Source: an uncultured Gammaproteobacteria bacterium (GTDB taxonomy: Bacteria; Pseudomonadota; Gammaproteobacteria; Enterobacterales; Psychrobiaceae). From it: a stretch of 64,000 bases of DNA. Below are positions 2,595 through 63,523 of the stretch, one piece after another; position 1 is the stretch's first letter, and every line of letters begins with the position of its first letter. A program made the position numbers and the translations under genes. The notes beneath the pieces are model-generated. The model was not told the origin of the DNA. It saw only the letters and a program-made list of their open reading frames with translations, and made no database searches. The DNA lies in the NCBI GenBank assembly GCA_937139475.1, contig CAKZQF010000222.1, positions 1 through 64,000 on the forward strand, read 5' to 3'.

Positions 2595-5500
2595 ATGCGT
2601 AAAACTAAACTAGCCCTTGTGGTCGCTGCTGCCTTATTTTCTTGCGCAACAGCATATGCAACAGAAACCTCTTCCGGTGTTCGCGGAAAAATTGTCGACG
2701 CTAATGGAACCCCTCAAGCAAATCTAACGATTGAGCTTGTTCATGTACCTACCAAAACCGTTAAAACCTTAACAACATCCGATGGCGGCGTTTTTCGAGC
2801 CCGTGGTTTAGCCGTTGGTGGCCCATATCGCGTGAGGTTGCAAGATGGCAGCGAATTTATGGTTAAAGATGCCAAAGATTTGTTCTTGAAATTATCTAAT
2901 ACTGCTACGGTTAATCTTGTGATTGAACCTAAAGCTAAAAAAGAAATTGAAACTATTTCTGTTACTGGTAGCGCGCTGGCTGCGGCGATGAAACAAGGCG
3001 CTGGTAGTGAGTTTGGTGCGGACCAAATTGCAAATACGGGTTCAATAGGGCGAGACCTTAAATCAGTACTGGCACGTGACTCAAAAATCGTTGTAGATAA
3101 CACGATTGAAGATGGCCCAGGCTTGTCTGTTGCAGGTGCAAATATTCGTTTTAATAGTCTCACCGTCGATGGCGTAAAACAAAATGATGATTTTGGACTG
3201 AATAAGAATGGCTACCCGTCTCGTCGTAGCCCTATTTCCCTTGATGCGATTGAACAATTATCGGTAAATATCGCACCGTTTGATGTTTCATATGGTTCGT
3301 TTCAAGGGGGCAACATTAATGTTGTAACCAAATCCGGCACCAATGATTTATCGGGCACAGTATTTTATTATAAATCGAATGACTCATTGATCGGCGACAA
3401 GAGTGATGGCCTAGATATTGATATTGGTGAATTTGAAGAAGATACCTATGGCTTTAGCCTCGGCGGGGCACTTGTTGAGGATAAGCTATTTTTCTTCAGC
3501 TCTTATGAAAAGTACGAAACTACCTCTCCTTACGGTAAAGAGCTCAATAATGGTGATGGTAATCTGACATTAACTGAGATCCCTGGGGTAACGGAAGATG
3601 AGTTCGCACGAATTCATCAAATTGCCAATGATGTTTATGGTTACGATACGTTAGGTTTCGATGCTGATAATAAGATGGAGGATGAGAAGTTTTTGCTTAA
3701 GCTAGATTGGTACATTAGTGACGAGCATCGTAGTTCATTTACCTATCAGCGTTCTACTGGCGATACCGTACGTGATTTTTGGCCATCGCTAGGCCAGAAT
3801 AATGTTGCGTCAGTATCTAATCGATACCGTCATGCCGATGAGTTATCAGTTTACTCATTGCAATTTTTCTCGGATTGGAATGATGATTTCTCGACTGAAG
3901 TAAAAATTGGATTAAAACAAGTAACTACGACGCAAGTAGCGTTGGGTGACGATTTTGCTCAGTTGCGGATAACAACGCCAAGTGGTGGTGATGTTTATAT
4001 TGGACCAGACCAATTTCGCCATGCCAATGAGCTTGAAAACGATCGCTTCAATTTTAGTGTCAAAGGTAACTACTATTTAAATGACGAGCACACGCTAAGC
4101 TTTGGCTATGAGCGTGAGATTCTTGATATCTACAACTTGTTTGTTTTCGGTTCTAAAGGCTGGGCGGAGTACGTTAGTATTGATGCGTTTGAAGCTATGG
4201 ATCCATTACTTGCGCTCTACCAAAACGCCCCAACCAATAACCCTGAAGATGCGGCTGATGATTTTGAGTACCATACCGATGTACTGTACTTCCAAGATGA
4301 GTGGGCCGTTAATGATGATCTAACGGTTACGGCGGGTCTGCGTTATACCAAATATACCAATGATGACCTACCAGAGTTGAATCCTAACTTCGTTGCACGT
4401 CACGGTTATGCAAATACAGAAAACTTCGATGGTCTTGATTTACTAAGCCCACGCTTAGGTTTTAACTATCTGCTAAGTGATGAAACAACGATTCGTGGTG
4501 GTATTGGCTTATTTGGTGGCGGCGCACCTAACGTTTGGTTATCAAACTCTTACGGCAATGACGGTGTGCGTAAACATGTAACGTTTGGTTTGGCTGAAAA
4601 CTATGGTGGCTGGGTCGATTTACAAGGGTTTGATGGACGTAATATTCCGCAATATTATTTAGATAACCTAGCACCGGTTGATGCAGATACCAACTCGATT
4701 GATCCAGACTTTGAAATCCCAAGCACATGGAAGTATAACTTAGCGGTTGACCATGTTGCTGATTTATCAGCGATGGGCTTAGGTGAAGATTGGCGCTTAT
4801 CTGCTGAATACATTTATAACAAGGTTAATGACGCGGTAGTCTATCGCGATCTGAACTTAACCCAAATTGATACGGCGCCAGATGGACGTCCAATTTATGA
4901 CAAAGCGACACCGTTTGATTTAAGCCTCACCAATACATCCCGCGGCTTTTCTGAAGTTATTACATTAGGTGCTCAAAAAACCTTCTATACCGATCACGGT
5001 ATGTATGACTTGTCGTTAAATTATACGCACCAAAACAGTAAAGAGGTTAACCCTGGAAATGCCTTTATTGCCTTTGAAGGCTACGCGATGCCAGCATCGT
5101 CAGATTTCCAAAGCGATACGCTTTACAATTCAGAGTATGAAATCCCGCATGCCTTTAGTGCAAACTTAAGTTGGTCTGGCGAAGTGTTTGGCGATAACGT
5201 CACTCGAGTAAACTTATTGTTTACGGCGCGCCAAGGTAGCCATTACAGTTACACGATGGCGACCTCAGGTGCCTTTGGCGGCTTTGGTTCAGACTTTGCT
5301 GATTGGAACGCATTTAACTCACAGCTTTTATACGTACCAACCGGTATTGATGACGCCAAAGTAGAGTTTACAAACGCAGAGCAAGCACAAGCCTTTGATG
5401 ATTTTGTTTCAAACAATGCTTGTTTGTCAGAGCAACGCGGCCAAATTGCAAAACGTCATAGCTGTAGTTCGCCTTGGATCCAGCGTCTTGACTTATCGAT

Positions 5501-51947: not shown

Positions 51948-52413
51948 AACTCTTCCTTAATTGTTGCTAGTCTCTAATAGGAGGCCGTTGCCACACGTAG
52001 CTACAAGCTATGTGCCTAATTATATTATCGCGGTGCTGTCGCTATGCCTATGATCAGGATCAAGTGCTCTAAAAGTAACCAACTCTACACTGTTGCCGTA
52101 AGACTAAGTGAGTCTATTCATCGGTATAAAACCTAAGTTGAGCTAAATTATCGCTATCTGCTAGAATCTCTCTATAAATAACGTAATAATGACCAGTAAG
52201 GTTGATATTTCTGTATGGGGCGGTCGTTATCGCCACATAATAGAGTTGTAAGAAAAGGAAGAGTGAAATTGTGTGAGCTACTGGGCATGACTCATCGCAA
52301 TGTTTTACGCTAGTTCGGAAAACATCAATTAGTATCAAATCTGTTTAAAATCAACGTTTAACTATCTTTTGTTATATCCTCCCGTCTCATGTATTATCGC
52401 TAAGCCTTGGTGC

Positions 52414-52447: not shown

Positions 52448-53698
52448 ATGAGATTTACTGATAAGATGATTAAGGGGCTAGCCCCTAAAGAAAAAGACTA
52501 TGTGATTACCGAAAAAAGTGATGAGCGCGGAGCAGGGCGCTTACAAATAAAGGTGTATCCATCGGGCATTATCTCATTTCAATTTCAATACTACATCGAC
52601 AAAAAACGTCGGCGTATTGAGATCGGAAAATACCCATTATTCTCATTAGCCGATGCACGTAAAAGGTTTTATCAGTTAAGTGAATCTGTTGCACTTGGCC
52701 ATGACCCAATGGTTGAGAAAGGCGTAAGCCAAGCAGAACAAAAGCTGCTTAATTCACTAGCGACCATGCACGAATTAATCACTGAATTTATTGAATACGG
52801 TGAAACCGAGTTTGCGGCTAGTACGATGAAGCGCTTAGTTAATTGTTTTAACCATGACCTTACACCATTTATAACCGATGAATTATCAATAAACGATTTC
52901 ATTGAGCAAGATCTTGCTCGAGAGCTGATTTATAAGGTGTATAACCGTGGTGCAATTCACCAAGCCGATATATTCCGTTCTAATCTAATGAGCATGTTTA
53001 AATTCGCTATCGACTACGACAACTCACCAGCACGCTACAAACTACCTAATCGATACGGCCAGAAGATAAACCCAATACGTGATATCAATATTCAGGTGCC
53101 AACCAACGCTAACAAGCGCTGGCTTAATGAAGAAGAGATTAAAAAAATCTGGCATGCCGATGATCTCCCCTTTATTGCCCAGCAATATTTCAGGCTAGCA
53201 TTAGCGTTAGGCGGTCAACGCATCGAAGAAGTCTATAAATCTTATGCTCATGAGTACAATTTCGAAGACAACACGCTGACCATTCCACGCGAACGCATCA
53301 AAGTTAGAGACCGTGGTGATCATGTTGTGCCAATCTCACCATTAGCAGTTGAAATACTCCAAGAAATACTACCGCATCGTGGCAGCACTGGCGCATTGTT
53401 CCCACATCGTGACGACCCAACAAAACCAGCTCATCACAACACAATCAGCATTGCTTATGCTCGCTGGTGCAAAAAACATAGCATGCCTAGCTTCTCACCA
53501 AAGGTCTTGCGCTCAACTTGCAAAACGCTTATGACAAAAGCTGGTGTACCAATTCATATTCGCGACATCTTGCAGCAACATAACAAGCGTGATGTTGCGA
53601 CTGTTCATTATGATAGATATGACTATTTAAGTGAAAAGATTGATGGTATCGGTGTTTGGGATAAGTACTTGATGAAGATCATTCATGAGACGGGTTGA
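52448..53698 (+). CDS. tyrosine-type site-specific integrase (P4-like)
   Basis: This 416-residue integrase has an N-terminal DUF4102-like arm-binding region (MRFTDKMIKGLAPKEKDYVI; FQYYIDKKRRRIEIGKYPLF) and a central SAM-like region. The catalytic domain has Arg in LGGQRIEEVY, Lys-Arg in SPKVLRSTCKTLM and the nucleophile Tyr in ATVHYDRYD. It should integrate and excise the element on its right. No tRNA is seen next to it, so the usual tRNA target is absent on this side. AAAACGATATG is a weak start context. Confidence 0.93.
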   Translation: MRFTDKMIKGLAPKEKDYVITEKSDERGAGRLQIKVYPSGIISFQFQYYIDKKRRRIEIGKYPLFSLADARKRFYQLSESVALGHDPMVEKGVSQAEQKLLNSLATMHELITEFIEYGETEFAASTMKRLVNCFNHDLTPFITDELSINDFIEQDLARELIYKVYNRGAIHQADIFRSNLMSMFKFAIDYDNSPARYKLPNRYGQKINPIRDINIQVPTNANKRWLNEEEIKKIWHADDLPFIAQQYFRLALALGGQRIEEVYKSYAHEYNFEDNTLTIPRERIKVRDRGDHVVPISPLAVEILQEILPHRGSTGALFPHRDDPTKPAHHNTISIAYARWCKKHSMPSFSPKVLRSTCKTLMTKAGVPIHIRDILQQHNKRDVATVHYDRYDYLSEKIDGIGVWDKYLMKIIHETG

Positions 53699-56878: not shown

Positions 56879-57559
56879 CTACATTCTCTGACCAGACCAA
56901 ACAACCCGACCGATTAACTCTAAATCGGTGCCGTTAAAGTCTTCTCTTTTTATTTCCCACGGCTCATACATCGTGTTGTCAGATTTAACTTTGACGATGC
57001 CGTTAGGGAGTGACTGCAAGCGTTTTACTAGCAAGCTGTTGTCGTGACGCATTACATAAATACCATCTGATAAGCCAGATAGATTCTTGTCTACCATGAT
57101 CATTGAGCCGTTCTTAAGGGTTGGGTACATGCTGTCACCGTCAACCAACATCAAAAACACATCATTAGGGTTCACACCCACTTCTTTACGTAACCATTCC
57201 GGCTCAAAGCTTATTGTCTTTGCTTGATCTTCTATTTCAACCAACACACCAATTCCAGCAGATGCAGTTATTTCATAGAAAGGTAATTGAATATGTTCTG
57301 TATTCGGAATTATCACTTGGTCGCAATCAGGTGATATTTGACCTGATTCTGGCGCTGTTTTGTCTGTCATTAACCACAATGAGTAACATTCTAGCTCTGC
57401 TTGTGAAATTATTTTTTCTATCGCTGTAAGTCCTACCGAGGCATGCCCTGTTTCAAGTTTTCTTAATGAACTCAGTGGGATAGTAGTTTTTTCTGCGAAC
57501 TCGCTTTGATTTAAACCAAGTGAATTCCTTACTGCTTTTATTTTTTCTGCGTAATTCAT
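56879..57559 (-). CDS. CI/LexA-like phage repressor (XRE HTH + S24 peptidase)
   Basis: This 226-residue repressor has an N-terminal XRE helix-turn-helix (RNSLGLNQSEFAEKTTIPLS, then LRKLETGHASVG) and a C-terminal S24 self-cleaving peptidase domain. The nucleophile Ser is in LVDGDSMYPTL and the general base Lys in NSLLVKRLQS. The predicted cleavage pair is probably Ala-Gly in ITASAGIGVLV. It is divergent from the AlpA-like gene and likely holds the mobile element silent until RecA* triggers cleavage. The gap holds palindromes that look like its operators. Confidence 0.92.
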   Translation of the reverse strand: MNYAEKIKAVRNSLGLNQSEFAEKTTIPLSSLRKLETGHASVGLTAIEKIISQAELECYSLWLMTDKTAPESGQISPDCDQVIIPNTEHIQLPFYEITASAGIGVLVEIEDQAKTISFEPEWLRKEVGVNPNDVFLMLVDGDSMYPTLKNGSMIMVDKNLSGLSDGIYVMRHDNSLLVKRLQSLPNGIVKVKSDNTMYEPWEIKREDFNGTDLELIGRVVWSGQRM

Positions 57560-57676: not shown

Positions 57677-58006
57677 ATGTCGATAGCTCATGGAACGAAT
57701 ATAGAGGCTAAACCTATGAATATGAACGAAAACGAAACACCAATAAATCAAACGCTTATTAACCCATTAGGCATTGAACGTAACTTGCGTATGAAAGAAG
57801 TGATTGAGGCTGTTGGTCTATCTCGCGCCACAATTTACCGAATGATGGGAGTCTTTAAATTTCCGCTAGCAGTAAAGGTGTCTTTGTCGCTAGTTGGTTG
57901 GAAAGCTGCTGAGCTCAGAGAGTATATGCAATTGGGCCCAGATGGTTGGTACGAAAAATACGGCAAGCAGCAAGAAGCCGAAAAACTTAAACGCCAGCAA
58001 GCATAA
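57677..58006 (+). CDS. AlpA-family transcriptional regulator / excisionase
   Basis: This 109-residue protein has the AlpA/MerR-like winged HTH: LRMKEVIEAVGLSRATIYRM, MMGVFKFPLAVKVSLSLVGW and KAAELREYM, followed by a charged C-terminal tail. AlpA proteins activate integrase expression or act as excisionase in P4-like satellites. GAGGGA precedes the ATG at 57677. It is the first gene of the rightward lytic-type operon (small ORFs then Rep) and divergent from the CI-like repressor. Confidence 0.9.
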   Translation: MSIAHGTNIEAKPMNMNENETPINQTLINPLGIERNLRMKEVIEAVGLSRATIYRMMGVFKFPLAVKVSLSLVGWKAAELREYMQLGPDGWYEKYGKQQEAEKLKRQQA

Positions 58007-58849: not shown

Positions 58850-59206
58850 ATGGACAAGAAGTTACTCAAAATAAGAGCAAAAGAATACCTAGCAACAATG
58901 GGCGCTACGCTCTCAGTTTCCAAAGAGCATCTGCCGAGAGACTATCGCGCAATGGCGTTGGGTTTCAGCAAAGGGGCGGTTTCAGGCGTTATAGTGCCAA
59001 AGGATTGGCGGAAACTATCAAATCCGTTAGAGATAAATTCATTGCCGGAACACTTACCTGCGGGGCTGATAGTCAGCTTCGAGCACCTGCAATTAAACGA
59101 GTTCATGATAATTCAGAGGTACATAAACGTAATTCAGTTCGAATCCTTAGAGAGGGTATCTGAAAATGATTGGTCTGTCCTTGATACCGAGATGCGCAAC
59201 ATCTAA
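58850..59206 (+). CDS. unknown element protein, 118 aa
   Basis: This 118-residue reading frame starts at an ATG 7 bases after AAAGGA (58836-58841). It encodes a normal-looking soluble protein (KRAKEYL-like start, LPRDYRAMALGFSKGAVSGV, VPKDWRKLSNPLEINSLPEH). An overlapping frame at 58780-59163 is longer but very basic with little hydrophobic content and looks like a shadow, so this one is preferred. It lies just before the Rep gene. No family recognised. Confidence 0.62.
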   Translation: MDKKLLKIRAKEYLATMGATLSVSKEHLPRDYRAMALGFSKGAVSGVIVPKDWRKLSNPLEINSLPEHLPAGLIVSFEHLQLNEFMIIQRYINVIQFESLERVSENDWSVLDTEMRNI

Positions 59207-59226
59207 AAATACAAAGGGCATGCATC

Positions 59227-61062
59227 ATGTCCTTTAACGCCTTAAATTTAAACAACAACGCCGACCTTGAGTCGGCTTTTTTGGGTTTCGAAGAAAATAA
59301 TACTGACTTAATTCCACAAAAATTACATAACTCTCATGTGAAATTGTATGCAGGTGGTAAATATTTACGTTGGGGATATGACCGTTTACCTTTTGATGGC
59401 GAACACGAATTACAAAAGTTAAAAACGGCAGAGCAACTTCACCAGGCGCGCCATCTTTTAAGCCTCGCAGAGGGGAGTGAAACGAGCAAAGACTATAGGC
59501 TAGTCAAGAAGTGCAAAAGTCCGACACGGTTAGAAAAGGCCTTTGAAACGCTAGTAGAATCAAAGCGTATGCAGTCAAAAAGCGAGTTTTTCGCAAGGGC
59601 TGATACATTGGATGCCAATCACGCAGAATGGCTTAAATTGCCTCTCAGGGATCAGAGATACACCGTTAAAAATGAAACTCACTCTATTGATTTGTTAAAT
59701 GGCTTTAGAAGTCCTGCCGAAGTCGACTCAACAGTTAATGAGGAAACGGGTGAAATTACATTTAATGCCGGTGTGCGCGGTGCGGTTGCTCGAATTTATG
59801 AGCGAGAGTGGGCAAATAGCTATCGCATTCGTGTTATGGCGCAAGGCTCAGCAAGTGAACCGCCCCCTCAACAATCAGGCGATAGAGAAACAAGCCAATT
59901 GTCTCAAAAAGGCGCATCTAAAATCTTAGACTCAGGTGCTTACGTTGCTGCGGTTCGCGGTGGTTTTACTACGTTCTTAACATTGACCTTCGACAGTGAG
60001 GCGCGCCAGCGCATCGTTAACCAAGAAAATACGATAGGTAAAGAAGTTAGCCGCTTTTTTGATGCCATCAGTAAGACTTATTTGCGCGGTTGGCAGTGTG
60101 CCGGTGAAGTGCTCAAGCATAAAAACGGTTTCGATTGTATTGGTGCCAGCGAAAAAGTAGCCCCCGTTGGCGAAGCGCTTGATTATCTTTGGGTGGCTGA
60201 AATGCCAGAAAACAAAGATGGTGAGCCAAATCCGCATTGTCATGTATTACTACGCTGGGCTGTTGAGCCGCATTTATTCCATGACTGGGCCGCAAAAATT
60301 GAAAGCCTTTGGGGTTTAGGTTTTGCCAAGCTTGAACGTATCCGCAATGCCGATGCAGCCAGTGGTTATTTGCTTAAAGCGCTTGGCTACGTAGTAAAAG
60401 GCGAATCAAAAGAGCAAGGGCAATTCAAAGGTAATCGCTACAACATCAGCAAAGCCGCACGCGCCCCAGCATGGGAGTGTTTAGCCGAATTTGAAGCACA
60501 AAATATGTGCGCCATCATCAATGAAATACGTGAGAAATGGATCCGTAAAGATAAGCCTATTCGCTCGGCAATTAACTTTACCAAGAAAAAATTAGCAAAG
60601 TATAAAGAGGCTTACAACATACAAAAAACCAAGAAAGGTCGCACCCAAGCACAACGAAACCATACCTTAAGCAAGATGCAAAAACGCATTGCCGAATTTG
60701 AAGAATCCATCAAAGCCAATTACAAAAAATTAACTGAGCGTGGTGCGCGAGCTAACGAATACCAGGTGACCTTTAACAGTCCTGAATTACTTGCCAAGTT
60801 TATCGGTTGGGCAAACACAAATCGTTATTGGGGAGCTGAGGTGCTTGGTGGTTGTCTGCGCGATTACTCGTTTGAACGTCAAGCCGTCGGGGAGCTGGTA
60901 AAGCAAGCGCGTGATTACTGGAAAAGCTTTGGCGATAACCAAGAATACCAAGAAATGTTGTGGCCTCAGCGCCTTAACCAAGAATTTAATGATGAATTTG
61001 AGGGGATCTCTACAGATGAATTTTATAACGAGTATTACAACTGGCAGGAGTTGGCAGCATAG
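59227..61062 (+). CDS. rolling-circle replication initiator (HUH endonuclease)
   Basis: This 611-residue protein has a replication-initiator layout. The N-terminal region precedes an HUH nuclease domain with a TFLTLTFD strand at about 255, the H-x-H metal site His337-Cys-His339 in NPHCHVLLRW, and candidate nucleophile tyrosines Tyr381 and Tyr388 in GYLLKALGYVVKGE. A long basic helical C-terminal part follows. Such proteins nick a double-strand origin and start rolling-circle replication of plasmids, phages and satellites. An intrinsic-terminator structure lies within codons 12-19. The start follows AAAGGG; no other Met is near. Confidence 0.87.
   Translation: MSFNALNLNNNADLESAFLGFEENNTDLIPQKLHNSHVKLYAGGKYLRWGYDRLPFDGEHELQKLKTAEQLHQARHLLSLAEGSETSKDYRLVKKCKSPTRLEKAFETLVESKRMQSKSEFFARADTLDANHAEWLKLPLRDQRYTVKNETHSIDLLNGFRSPAEVDSTVNEETGEITFNAGVRGAVARIYEREWANSYRIRVMAQGSASEPPPQQSGDRETSQLSQKGASKILDSGAYVAAVRGGFTTFLTLTFDSEARQRIVNQENTIGKEVSRFFDAISKTYLRGWQCAGEVLKHKNGFDCIGASEKVAPVGEALDYLWVAEMPENKDGEPNPHCHVLLRWAVEPHLFHDWAAKIESLWGLGFAKLERIRNADAASGYLLKALGYVVKGESKEQGQFKGNRYNISKAARAPAWECLAEFEAQNMCAIINEIREKWIRKDKPIRSAINFTKKKLAKYKEAYNIQKTKKGRTQAQRNHTLSKMQKRIAEFEESIKANYKKLTERGARANEYQVTFNSPELLAKFIGWANTNRYWGAEVLGGCLRDYSFERQAVGELVKQARDYWKSFGDNQEYQEMLWPQRLNQEFNDEFEGISTDEFYNEYYNWQELAA
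59260..59282 (+). terminator. intrinsic terminator inside the rep coding sequence
   Basis: GCCGAC (59260-59265) pairs with GTCGGC (59271-59276) around CTTGA and is followed by six T, all within codons 12-19 of rep. It could attenuate rep transcription, or end the upstream operon if rep begins elsewhere. Confidence 0.7.
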
Positions 61063-61291: not shown

Positions 61292-61602
61292 GTTTCAGAA
61301 ACGCCCACTGCCCATAATGGTTTGAGCGATAAAAGCAGGTTTCAGAAACTCCGGTAAAAAGTTTCAGAAACTACCGATAAAGCTTTGAAAAACTGGCAAA
61401 GTGCCAATTTCAGAAAGAACCACTGCCCATAGTGGTTTGAAGAATTTAAAGGGCAATAACGGAATCTCTGAAAGAAGGATTTTGAAAACATCGGTAAAGT
61501 TCTGAAAAAATAATGTGCCAGTTTCAGGAAACCACACTGCCCATAGTGGTTTGAGCGACAAAATAAAATTTCAGAAACTCCAGTATAATAAGTTTCTGAA
61601 CC
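61292..61602. repeat. repeat-rich region after rep, about 115-bp imperfect tandem repeats
   Basis: CACTGCCCATARTGGTTTGA begins at 61306, 61421 and 61535, so the unit is 114-115 bases with about three copies that diverge between the anchors. GTTTCAGAAAC, itself a dyad, recurs at 61292, 61339 and 61361, with variants at 61407, 61521, 61568 and 61591. It lies just after rep and may be an origin, iteron or recombination region. No ORF over 60 codons fits it convincingly. Confidence 0.75.
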
Positions 61603-62017
61603 AACCGATAAAGTTCTGGTTTTTTGTTAAGTCACTAGCTGAATTAACCTAAAGAACAATTAAGCCTTTTGCTCTAAGAGATGGTCAATATAAGGCTTTA
61701 GCTCTAATTCACTAGCTACTACTCATCAATCACATTTCAATTAAGGCTAAAGCCTTAAACAAGCCTTTAGCCCCAAATACAAGCCAACCCACTCGGTTCT
61801 TGGCAGAAAACAAGCATTGCTATGGAAGTTATCAAAATTGATAAAAAGCTTGAACGCATGGGGAGCACTTAAGGTCAACGGGATTAGAGCAAGTACGAAT
61901 CTTTGCCGCTAACTAACTGGCTATCTTTATTCGATATCAAAGACTTGTAATACCTTCCAAGGAAGCGTACCTTGCAAGAATAGTATAATAATCTGTTGTG
62001 TTTAAAGGGAAATTACT
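61603..62017. other. AT-rich intergenic stretch with AAGGCTTTAGC-type motifs
   Basis: The motif AAGGCTTTAGC or its complement occurs four times between about 61660 and 61775, once as the palindrome AAGGCTAAAGCCTT. Beyond that no gene is seen up to 62017. This may be the right edge of the Rep-type element. Confidence 0.4.
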
Positions 62018-62731: not shown

Positions 62732-63523
62732 ATGAAGAACGACTATTATTGGTGGGATTTTGAAGAATCAACATTTAAAGGAGTCCTTTACGACTCTATA
62801 AATATGTATTTTCTTCATGACCACCCGTATAAGGATTGGAATGAATTTGCTGAAGCAGATCCTCATATGGCATACGCACACCTCACTTATGTTAGGTTTA
62901 ACGCACTAGAGCAACAGTTTGTTGATTTAAGAGTCATTCCCCAAATGCTTGGAGTGGAAACTATCCCTGTAAAATCCACTGTGCAAGATATAAACAGATA
63001 TGATTGGCTAAAATCAATTGTTGATTTGTCTCTGTTTAGGTTTTCAAGCCTAAGGGATATTGCGTTTCATTTTGTAAATGAAGTTTTGGAACTTGAACTT
63101 CCTGATCACAAGTTAAATATAAAGCAACTGAGCAAAGTTTTAAGAAAAGATCATTCAGAGGTTCTTGAACACTTAAAAGTATTAGATAAAACAGGAGTTC
63201 CACTCCGGCAAGACCGTAATGAACGTGCGCATAAAGGTTTTTGTAATCTTTACACTGATGATGATCAAATGTTTAAAAACATGGCGTGGGCAGAATCAGA
63301 TGGCTCACAAATAAGCGGTTATGATTTGATTGCAACCTATGAAAATTCTAGAGAAAAAATATATAGTATTGTGGTCACAGAGGTGCAGAAAGCTCTTAAC
63401 GCTAGCGTTGCTTTAGTTGATGAACTCTATAGCAATTATCGTGACAAGCATGATGCTTTGTCGTTAAATTCTAGGAGTGGTGTTTCGCGTCATTTTCATA
63501 ACTACCATAGAGAAGGTAGCTAA
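62732..63523 (+). CDS. protein with HEPN-type RNase motif
   Basis: This 263-residue, mainly helical protein carries the HEPN-type motif R-x4-H at Arg162-Asn-Glu-Arg-Ala-His167 (RQDRNERAHKGF). This is the sequence found in many RNase HEPN domains of toxin-antitoxin and anti-phage systems. The surrounding helices (FSSLRDIAFHFVNEVLELEL; LNASVALVDELYSNYRDK) fit a four-helix bundle. It follows AAGGAG. It lies 24 bases after a small membrane protein gene, so the pair may act together. A toxin or defence role is an inference; no search was possible. Confidence 0.72.
   Translation: MKNDYYWWDFEESTFKGVLYDSINMYFLHDHPYKDWNEFAEADPHMAYAHLTYVRFNALEQQFVDLRVIPQMLGVETIPVKSTVQDINRYDWLKSIVDLSLFRFSSLRDIAFHFVNEVLELELPDHKLNIKQLSKVLRKDHSEVLEHLKVLDKTGVPLRQDRNERAHKGFCNLYTDDDQMFKNMAWAESDGSQISGYDLIATYENSREKIYSIVVTEVQKALNASVALVDELYSNYRDKHDALSLNSRSGVSRHFHNYHREGS

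Follow-up and report, generated by a model that had tools for sequence, protein, structure and literature searches.

What does a hairpin followed by a run of Ts do when it lies just inside the coding sequence of a replication initiator gene? Such a site occurs in the window (the whole stretch of 64,000 nucleotides that was analysed), where a first-pass annotation had described a 6-base GC-rich stem with T6 within codons 12-19 of a rolling-circle rep gene. That description is exact. A GC-rich hairpin stands directly 5' of a sense-strand T-run at 59260-59282, and together they fill codons 12-19 counted from the rep ATG at 59227 (Table 1).

Considered on its own, the window hairpin is only mildly unusual. 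The 56 nt from 59227 to 59282 have a folding energy of −10.6 kcal/mol (z = −2.2, with 5 of 200 shuffled sequences equally stable), and the terminator hairpin folded alone has −9.0 kcal/mol. A consensus pattern scan of 4.5 kb returned seven terminator-like sites, against 5.0 ± 2.1 expected from shuffled sequence, and the window site taken singly is therefore unremarkable and proves little. No Rfam family matched at the hairpin, and a minus-strand terminator-like match to the same hairpin was rejected as it has no T-run and is not conserved. It is the conservation of the hairpin in relatives that goes far beyond chance. A second predicted hairpin, which covers the rep start codon and the Shine-Dalgarno-like AAAGGG at 59213-59218, has −11.4 kcal/mol (z = −3.1), appears in a longer fold as well and was seen at this locus only.

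Table 1. Positions of the features discussed, in window coordinates
Feature	Coordinates	Strand	Basis
Left 38-bp direct repeat, attachment-like	52253..52290	.	right copy at contig 65629-65666, beyond the window
Tyrosine integrase of the island	52448..53698	+	PF13356, PF00589
CI-type repressor (HTH and peptidase S24), divergent from the early row	56879..57559	-	PF00717, PF01381, phrog_4
AlpA-type regulator, head of the early gene row	57677..58006	+	PF05930, E 5e-14
ORF upstream of rep, 118 aa, with its end 20 nt 5' of the rep start	58850..59206	+	ORF list
10-bp RNA hairpin AAAGGGCATG-CAT-CATGTCCTTT, spanning the Shine-Dalgarno-like stretch and rep start codon	59213..59235	+	fold
rep, predicted 611-aa HUH-type rolling-circle initiator	59227..61062	+	PF23343, phrog_38601, invariant residues, HUH-like fold with moderate scores
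Intrinsic-terminator-like hairpin and T6: 5' arm GCCGAC (59260-59265), loop CTTGA (59266-59270), 3' arm GTCGGC (59271-59276), T6 (59277-59282)	59260..59282	+	sequence, fold, kept in 54/62 relatives, covarying
Small hairpin CCTCGCAGAGG, 5' of the nick-like motif, where relatives have two GC hairpins	59463..59473	+	sequence
Origin/nick-site-like motif TAGGCTAGTCAAGAAGTGCAAAAGTCCGACA inside rep	59496..59526	+	single site in genome; kept in relatives; resemblance to P2 nick site

The rep product and its genomic setting

Judged by its sequence, the rep product is a phage-type HUH initiator. It carries an HUH motif and catalytic tyrosines, with H337/H339 and Y381/Y388 invariant across 16 relatives, and it matches PF23343 above the cut-off (E 9e-8) as well as the PHROG family listed in Table 1. 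The predicted structural model is of modest quality (mean pLDDT 58); residues 1-183 are nearly all below 50 and the folded part extends from about residue 187 to 535. At this model quality, residues 230-414 align with middling scores to the HUH Reps AAV Rep (Z 6.6) and SIRV1 ORF119 (Z 7.6). Foldseek returned no match to the model at E 0.001, and a profile search of the PDB gave nothing useful. Membership of the P2 gpA family was considered and rejected, since PF05840 (Phage_GPA) is matched by P2 gpA and PM2 P12, while the window Rep and its relatives have no match other than PF23343. P2 gpA and PM2 P12 were likewise rejected as homologues of the window Rep, BLASTP finding no similarity although PF23343 is common to all of them.

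The gene lies in a 13.4-kb island integrated at contig positions 52253-65666 (52253-64000 within the window) and flanked by 38-bp direct repeats. The island carries KwaA/KwaB of Kiwa and PDC-M11A/B as candidate defence genes; none of the ORFs examined could be recognised as a capsid gene, in a search that was not exhaustive, and the ORF upstream of rep has no Pfam or PHROG match. A HEPN-domain protein (Cthe_2314-like) is encoded at 62732-63523, near the right end of the island. Iteron-like direct repeats of about 68 and 33 nt (TTTCAGAAACT... and CACTGCCCATAGTGGTTTGA), some 115 nt apart, lie just 3' of rep at 61292-61618. The element is an integrated phage-derived island, not a plasmid.

The four nearest relatives of Rep (about 42-52% identity) come from Alteromonadales-type genomes. 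Relatives were also found in 63 of 247 searched Vibrionaceae-type genomes (a family inferred from named Vibrio phage relatives), in tailless corticovirus-like phages such as NO16 and in P2-like tailed Vibrio phages.

Conservation of the hairpin and T-run

The annotation had staked its reading on the stem being kept in related rep genes, and that expectation was borne out strongly. In a first look, 17 of 17 relatives read by eye had a hairpin and T-run just inside rep, with differing stems, and in a set of 81 loci nearly all intact rep genes had them. We then used a fixed criterion (a stem of at least 5 bp with at least 4 GC pairs, a loop of 3-8 nt and T5 or more, within the first 240 nt of rep) to score 62 non-redundant rep genes, with the same proteins recoded by synonymous codons as a control. 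Matching sites were present in 54 of the 62 genes, compared with 2.5 expected from recoding. The same criterion matched once on the antisense strand, never in the 240 nt upstream of rep, in 0 of 418 later rep windows and in 0 of 230 other ORFs (≥150 aa) from the same loci. P2-type A genes, which came from querying viral contigs with P2 gpA and belong to close P2 relatives only, served as a negative control and had the hairpin with T-run in 0 of 60 cases.

Six of the eight rep genes that missed the criterion have an imperfect hairpin or T-run: L103 and L104 have T7 and just three GC pairs, L085, L133 and L135 have long stems followed by T4, and L132 has a strong hairpin and then a gap ahead of T4. 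The other two (L142 and L143) have no clear hairpin.

Because the criterion was set after the first look, an independent set matters. We scanned IMG/VR solely for the origin-like motif that lies further downstream in rep (see below) and obtained 21 non-redundant contigs with enough sequence. A hairpin and T-run was found 135-216 nt upstream of the motif in 20 of them, and none of the 21 had one downstream or in antisense. Most of these contigs overlap the first set in sequence; the four that barely overlap all have the hairpin and T-run.

Early hairpins of another kind were seen in P2 gene A (L144, near 3585-3610) and PM2 gene XII (L145, 1851-1882), where a long hairpin lies in the first 30 codons without an adjacent T-run. 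Hairpins early in the gene are perhaps a wider habit of such initiators.

Constraint on structure rather than on protein

What is conserved is the structure and not its letters. The 60 rep genes with a hairpin contain 32 distinct stems, some of them with G-U pairs, and the T-run is 6 or 7 nt long in 55 of the 60. Over 41 distinct sequences, 94% of the core base pairs (five per stem) can form, a share that drops to 19-42% when the alignment is slid, and double changes number 52 where shuffles give 16.5. The reading frame is also free. The T-run begins at codon position 3 in 51 genes, position 2 in six and position 1 in three, and the peptides encoded over the element differ accordingly (AFLGF in the window, GFFSA in NO16 and PLFLVP in L003). 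Within the T-run Phe is always encoded by TTT and Gly, where present, always by GGT, while elsewhere rep freely uses TTC and other Gly codons. Upstream of the hairpin within rep the peptide is conserved and most variation is at codon position 3. The varied frames and peptides, together with the exclusive use of TTT and GGT, indicate that protein sequence does not account for the conservation. A signal kept by dozens of distant relatives in other letters and other frames is likelier to be a real control switch than a product of chance.

The T-run is confined to the sense-strand 3' side of the hairpin, which points to transcription termination, as far as sequence can tell. Hairpin-stimulated transcriptional slippage, with the polymerase slipping on the T-run to give frame-shifted products, would also use these ingredients, since slippage signals and intrinsic terminators have features in common. 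Nevertheless, every intact member encodes Rep in one uninterrupted frame and so has no need of slippage, and the shifted frames reach a stop after a median of 10-15 codons; we consider this explanation extremely improbable.

The placement of the putative terminator in coding sequence, and not in a leader, proved to hold for the whole family: in every one of the 60 hairpin-bearing genes it lies within rep, and the rep frame is open from the start codon through the hairpin. This placement bears on the annotation's comparison with pT181-type plasmids, in which rep is attenuated by antisense RNA as a means of copy control. The terminator is indeed near the start of a rolling-circle-type initiator gene. 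However, in pT181 the terminator precedes the repC start and depends on a pre-emptor (PMC5703833), while here it is intragenic and a conserved antiterminator or pre-emptor, sought by eye in the folds, was not found. A consensus scan, which is a weak test, found no promoter-like site on the minus strand in 59150-59500. The plasmid analogy also gives way to the setting, an integrated island whose genes include those for a CI-type repressor, an AlpA-type regulator and a phage HUH Rep. Antisense attenuation of the pT181 kind is highly unlikely here, and copy control as such is unproven, because limiting Rep or shielding an adjacent origin would explain the element equally well.

An origin-like element downstream of the hairpin

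A second element within rep (59463-59526 in the window) is highly conserved and independent of frame. It consists of GC hairpins followed by TAGGCTNGTC...CAAAAGTCCGACA, and motifs of the type TAGGCTTGTCCAAGGGCGCAAAAGTCCGACA were found 112-250 nt after the T-run in 60 of 60 rep genes, usually with GC hairpins on the 5' side and read in at least two frames. The motif occurs once in the genome of the window. We infer from this sequence pattern that the element is an origin; in two phages GC skew increases over the full genome length and is uninformative on this point.

The proximity of the two elements raises the possibility that the hairpin works as DNA, either as a hairpin recognised by Rep or as a single-strand origin on the displaced strand, upstream of the nick site. 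HUH enzymes bind hairpins, and double-strand origins often have single-strand origins nearby. The invariable presence of the nick-like motif downstream is consistent with such a role, although the spacing from hairpin to motif is variable, the constant, one-sided T6-7 would be unexplained and the G-U pairs of some stems are better tolerated in RNA. It is therefore unlikely that the hairpin acts as part of the origin. The origin-like element itself resembles the region of the P2 nick site, P2 being nicked inside gene A at CGG/AGTCC, 3' of a hairpin (PMC8537503).

Proposed attenuation within rep

Our preferred reading is that an intrinsic terminator in the first rep codons acts as an attenuator, with readthrough probably raised by initiation of rep translation; taken as a whole we regard this as probable. 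The identification of the site as a putative attenuator inside rep is well supported by the sequence comparisons, whereas that rep initiation raises readthrough is a more tentative proposal, with close to an even chance of being correct. Termination in vivo and its efficiency are presumed from the sequence.

Transcription of the early row (the AlpA-type regulator, small ORFs and rep) would meet the hairpin and T-run just past the rep start codon. Some of it would end at the T-run, and readthrough alone would yield Rep and enter the origin-like element; the attenuator would thus likely limit both Rep and transcription into the origin. In 51 of the 62 rep genes the upstream ORF ends between −30 and +40 nt from the rep start, adjacent to or overlapping it, and its ribosomes would therefore leave shortly before the terminator, usually not more than a few tens of nt from where rep begins. 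This would leave the hairpin free to form unless a ribosome started on rep and trailed the polymerase closely. A transcript ending at the T-run would have a start codon and no stop codon, and so might be a substrate for ribosome rescue.

The same gene arrangement allows a simpler account, in which a terminator with a fixed leak does no more than hold Rep low compared with the early genes and protect the origin from transcription, and translation has no regulatory role. With abutting genes, any intergenic terminator would fall in coding sequence anyway, and the terminator would then lie within rep merely because there is no intergenic space. The distance from the rep start to the hairpin varies among relatives from 24 to 210 nt, so that no fixed ribosome geometry is preserved, and a fixed leak makes extra assumptions unnecessary. 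Against it, the terminator always lies in the translated part of rep, where it is open to interference by ribosomes. In addition, the window has its Shine-Dalgarno-like stretch and start codon in a hairpin and an additional hairpin separates the rep start from the terminator in 37 of 60 relatives (5.2 expected), both of which hint at more than a fixed leak. We regard a fixed leak as a serious possibility that falls somewhat short of an even chance. An intragenic attenuator whose outcome early translation could decide, as the first-pass annotation suggested, is the best-supported reading of the sequence, with a role for translation that is presumed.

It is conceivable, if less than probable, that this arrangement is branch-wide among the rolling-circle initiators of phages and satellites: the early coding sequence of rep would also be a control-and-origin cassette with a terminator opened only by rep-starting ribosomes, and translation would gate both Rep and transcription into the embedded origin. 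If the mechanism is true, it would explain low initiator expression in a polycistronic early row without intergenic room. Signals in the nucleic acid, and not the function of the protein, would shape the start of this Rep. With frame and letters free and structure constrained, the family offers a clean case of a terminator selected within coding sequence.

Comparison with known systems

In the open-access literature we found no earlier description of a phage rep family that keeps a terminator inside the gene. The putative rep-internal terminator is related to several known systems.

In the E. coli pyrBI operon (pyrL), ribosomes trailing the polymerase block the terminator hairpin (PMC5021804). 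Both there and here ribosomes translate through the stretch that holds the terminator, as the open frame of all 60 rep genes indicates, and a close ribosome could stop the hairpin from forming. The pyrBI terminator, however, follows a separate leader peptide, whereas the putative one of the window is built into the opening codons of the gene under control; pyrBI also has UTP-sensitive pausing.

The attenuators of pT181 repC and pIP501 repR share with the window an intrinsic terminator near a rep start; theirs lowers Rep, lies upstream of that start, on plasmids, and is responsive to antisense RNA (PMC5703833). The one described here is internal to rep and belongs to integrated phage-like elements, with no sign of an antisense RNA.

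Phage P2 gene A likewise encodes a two-tyrosine HUH initiator and has its nick site within the gene, after a hairpin and containing AGTCC (PMC8537503). It differs in that the window Rep lacks the Phage_GPA domain, the origin of P2 is located towards the 3' end of A, and the hairpin with T-run is missing from P2-type A genes.

Finally, transcripts ending within coding sequence are widespread in E. coli (PMC7815308). Those 3' ends belong to individual genes, whereas here the element holds one position in one gene family that is common to diverse mobile elements, from tailless and tailed phages to integrated islands.
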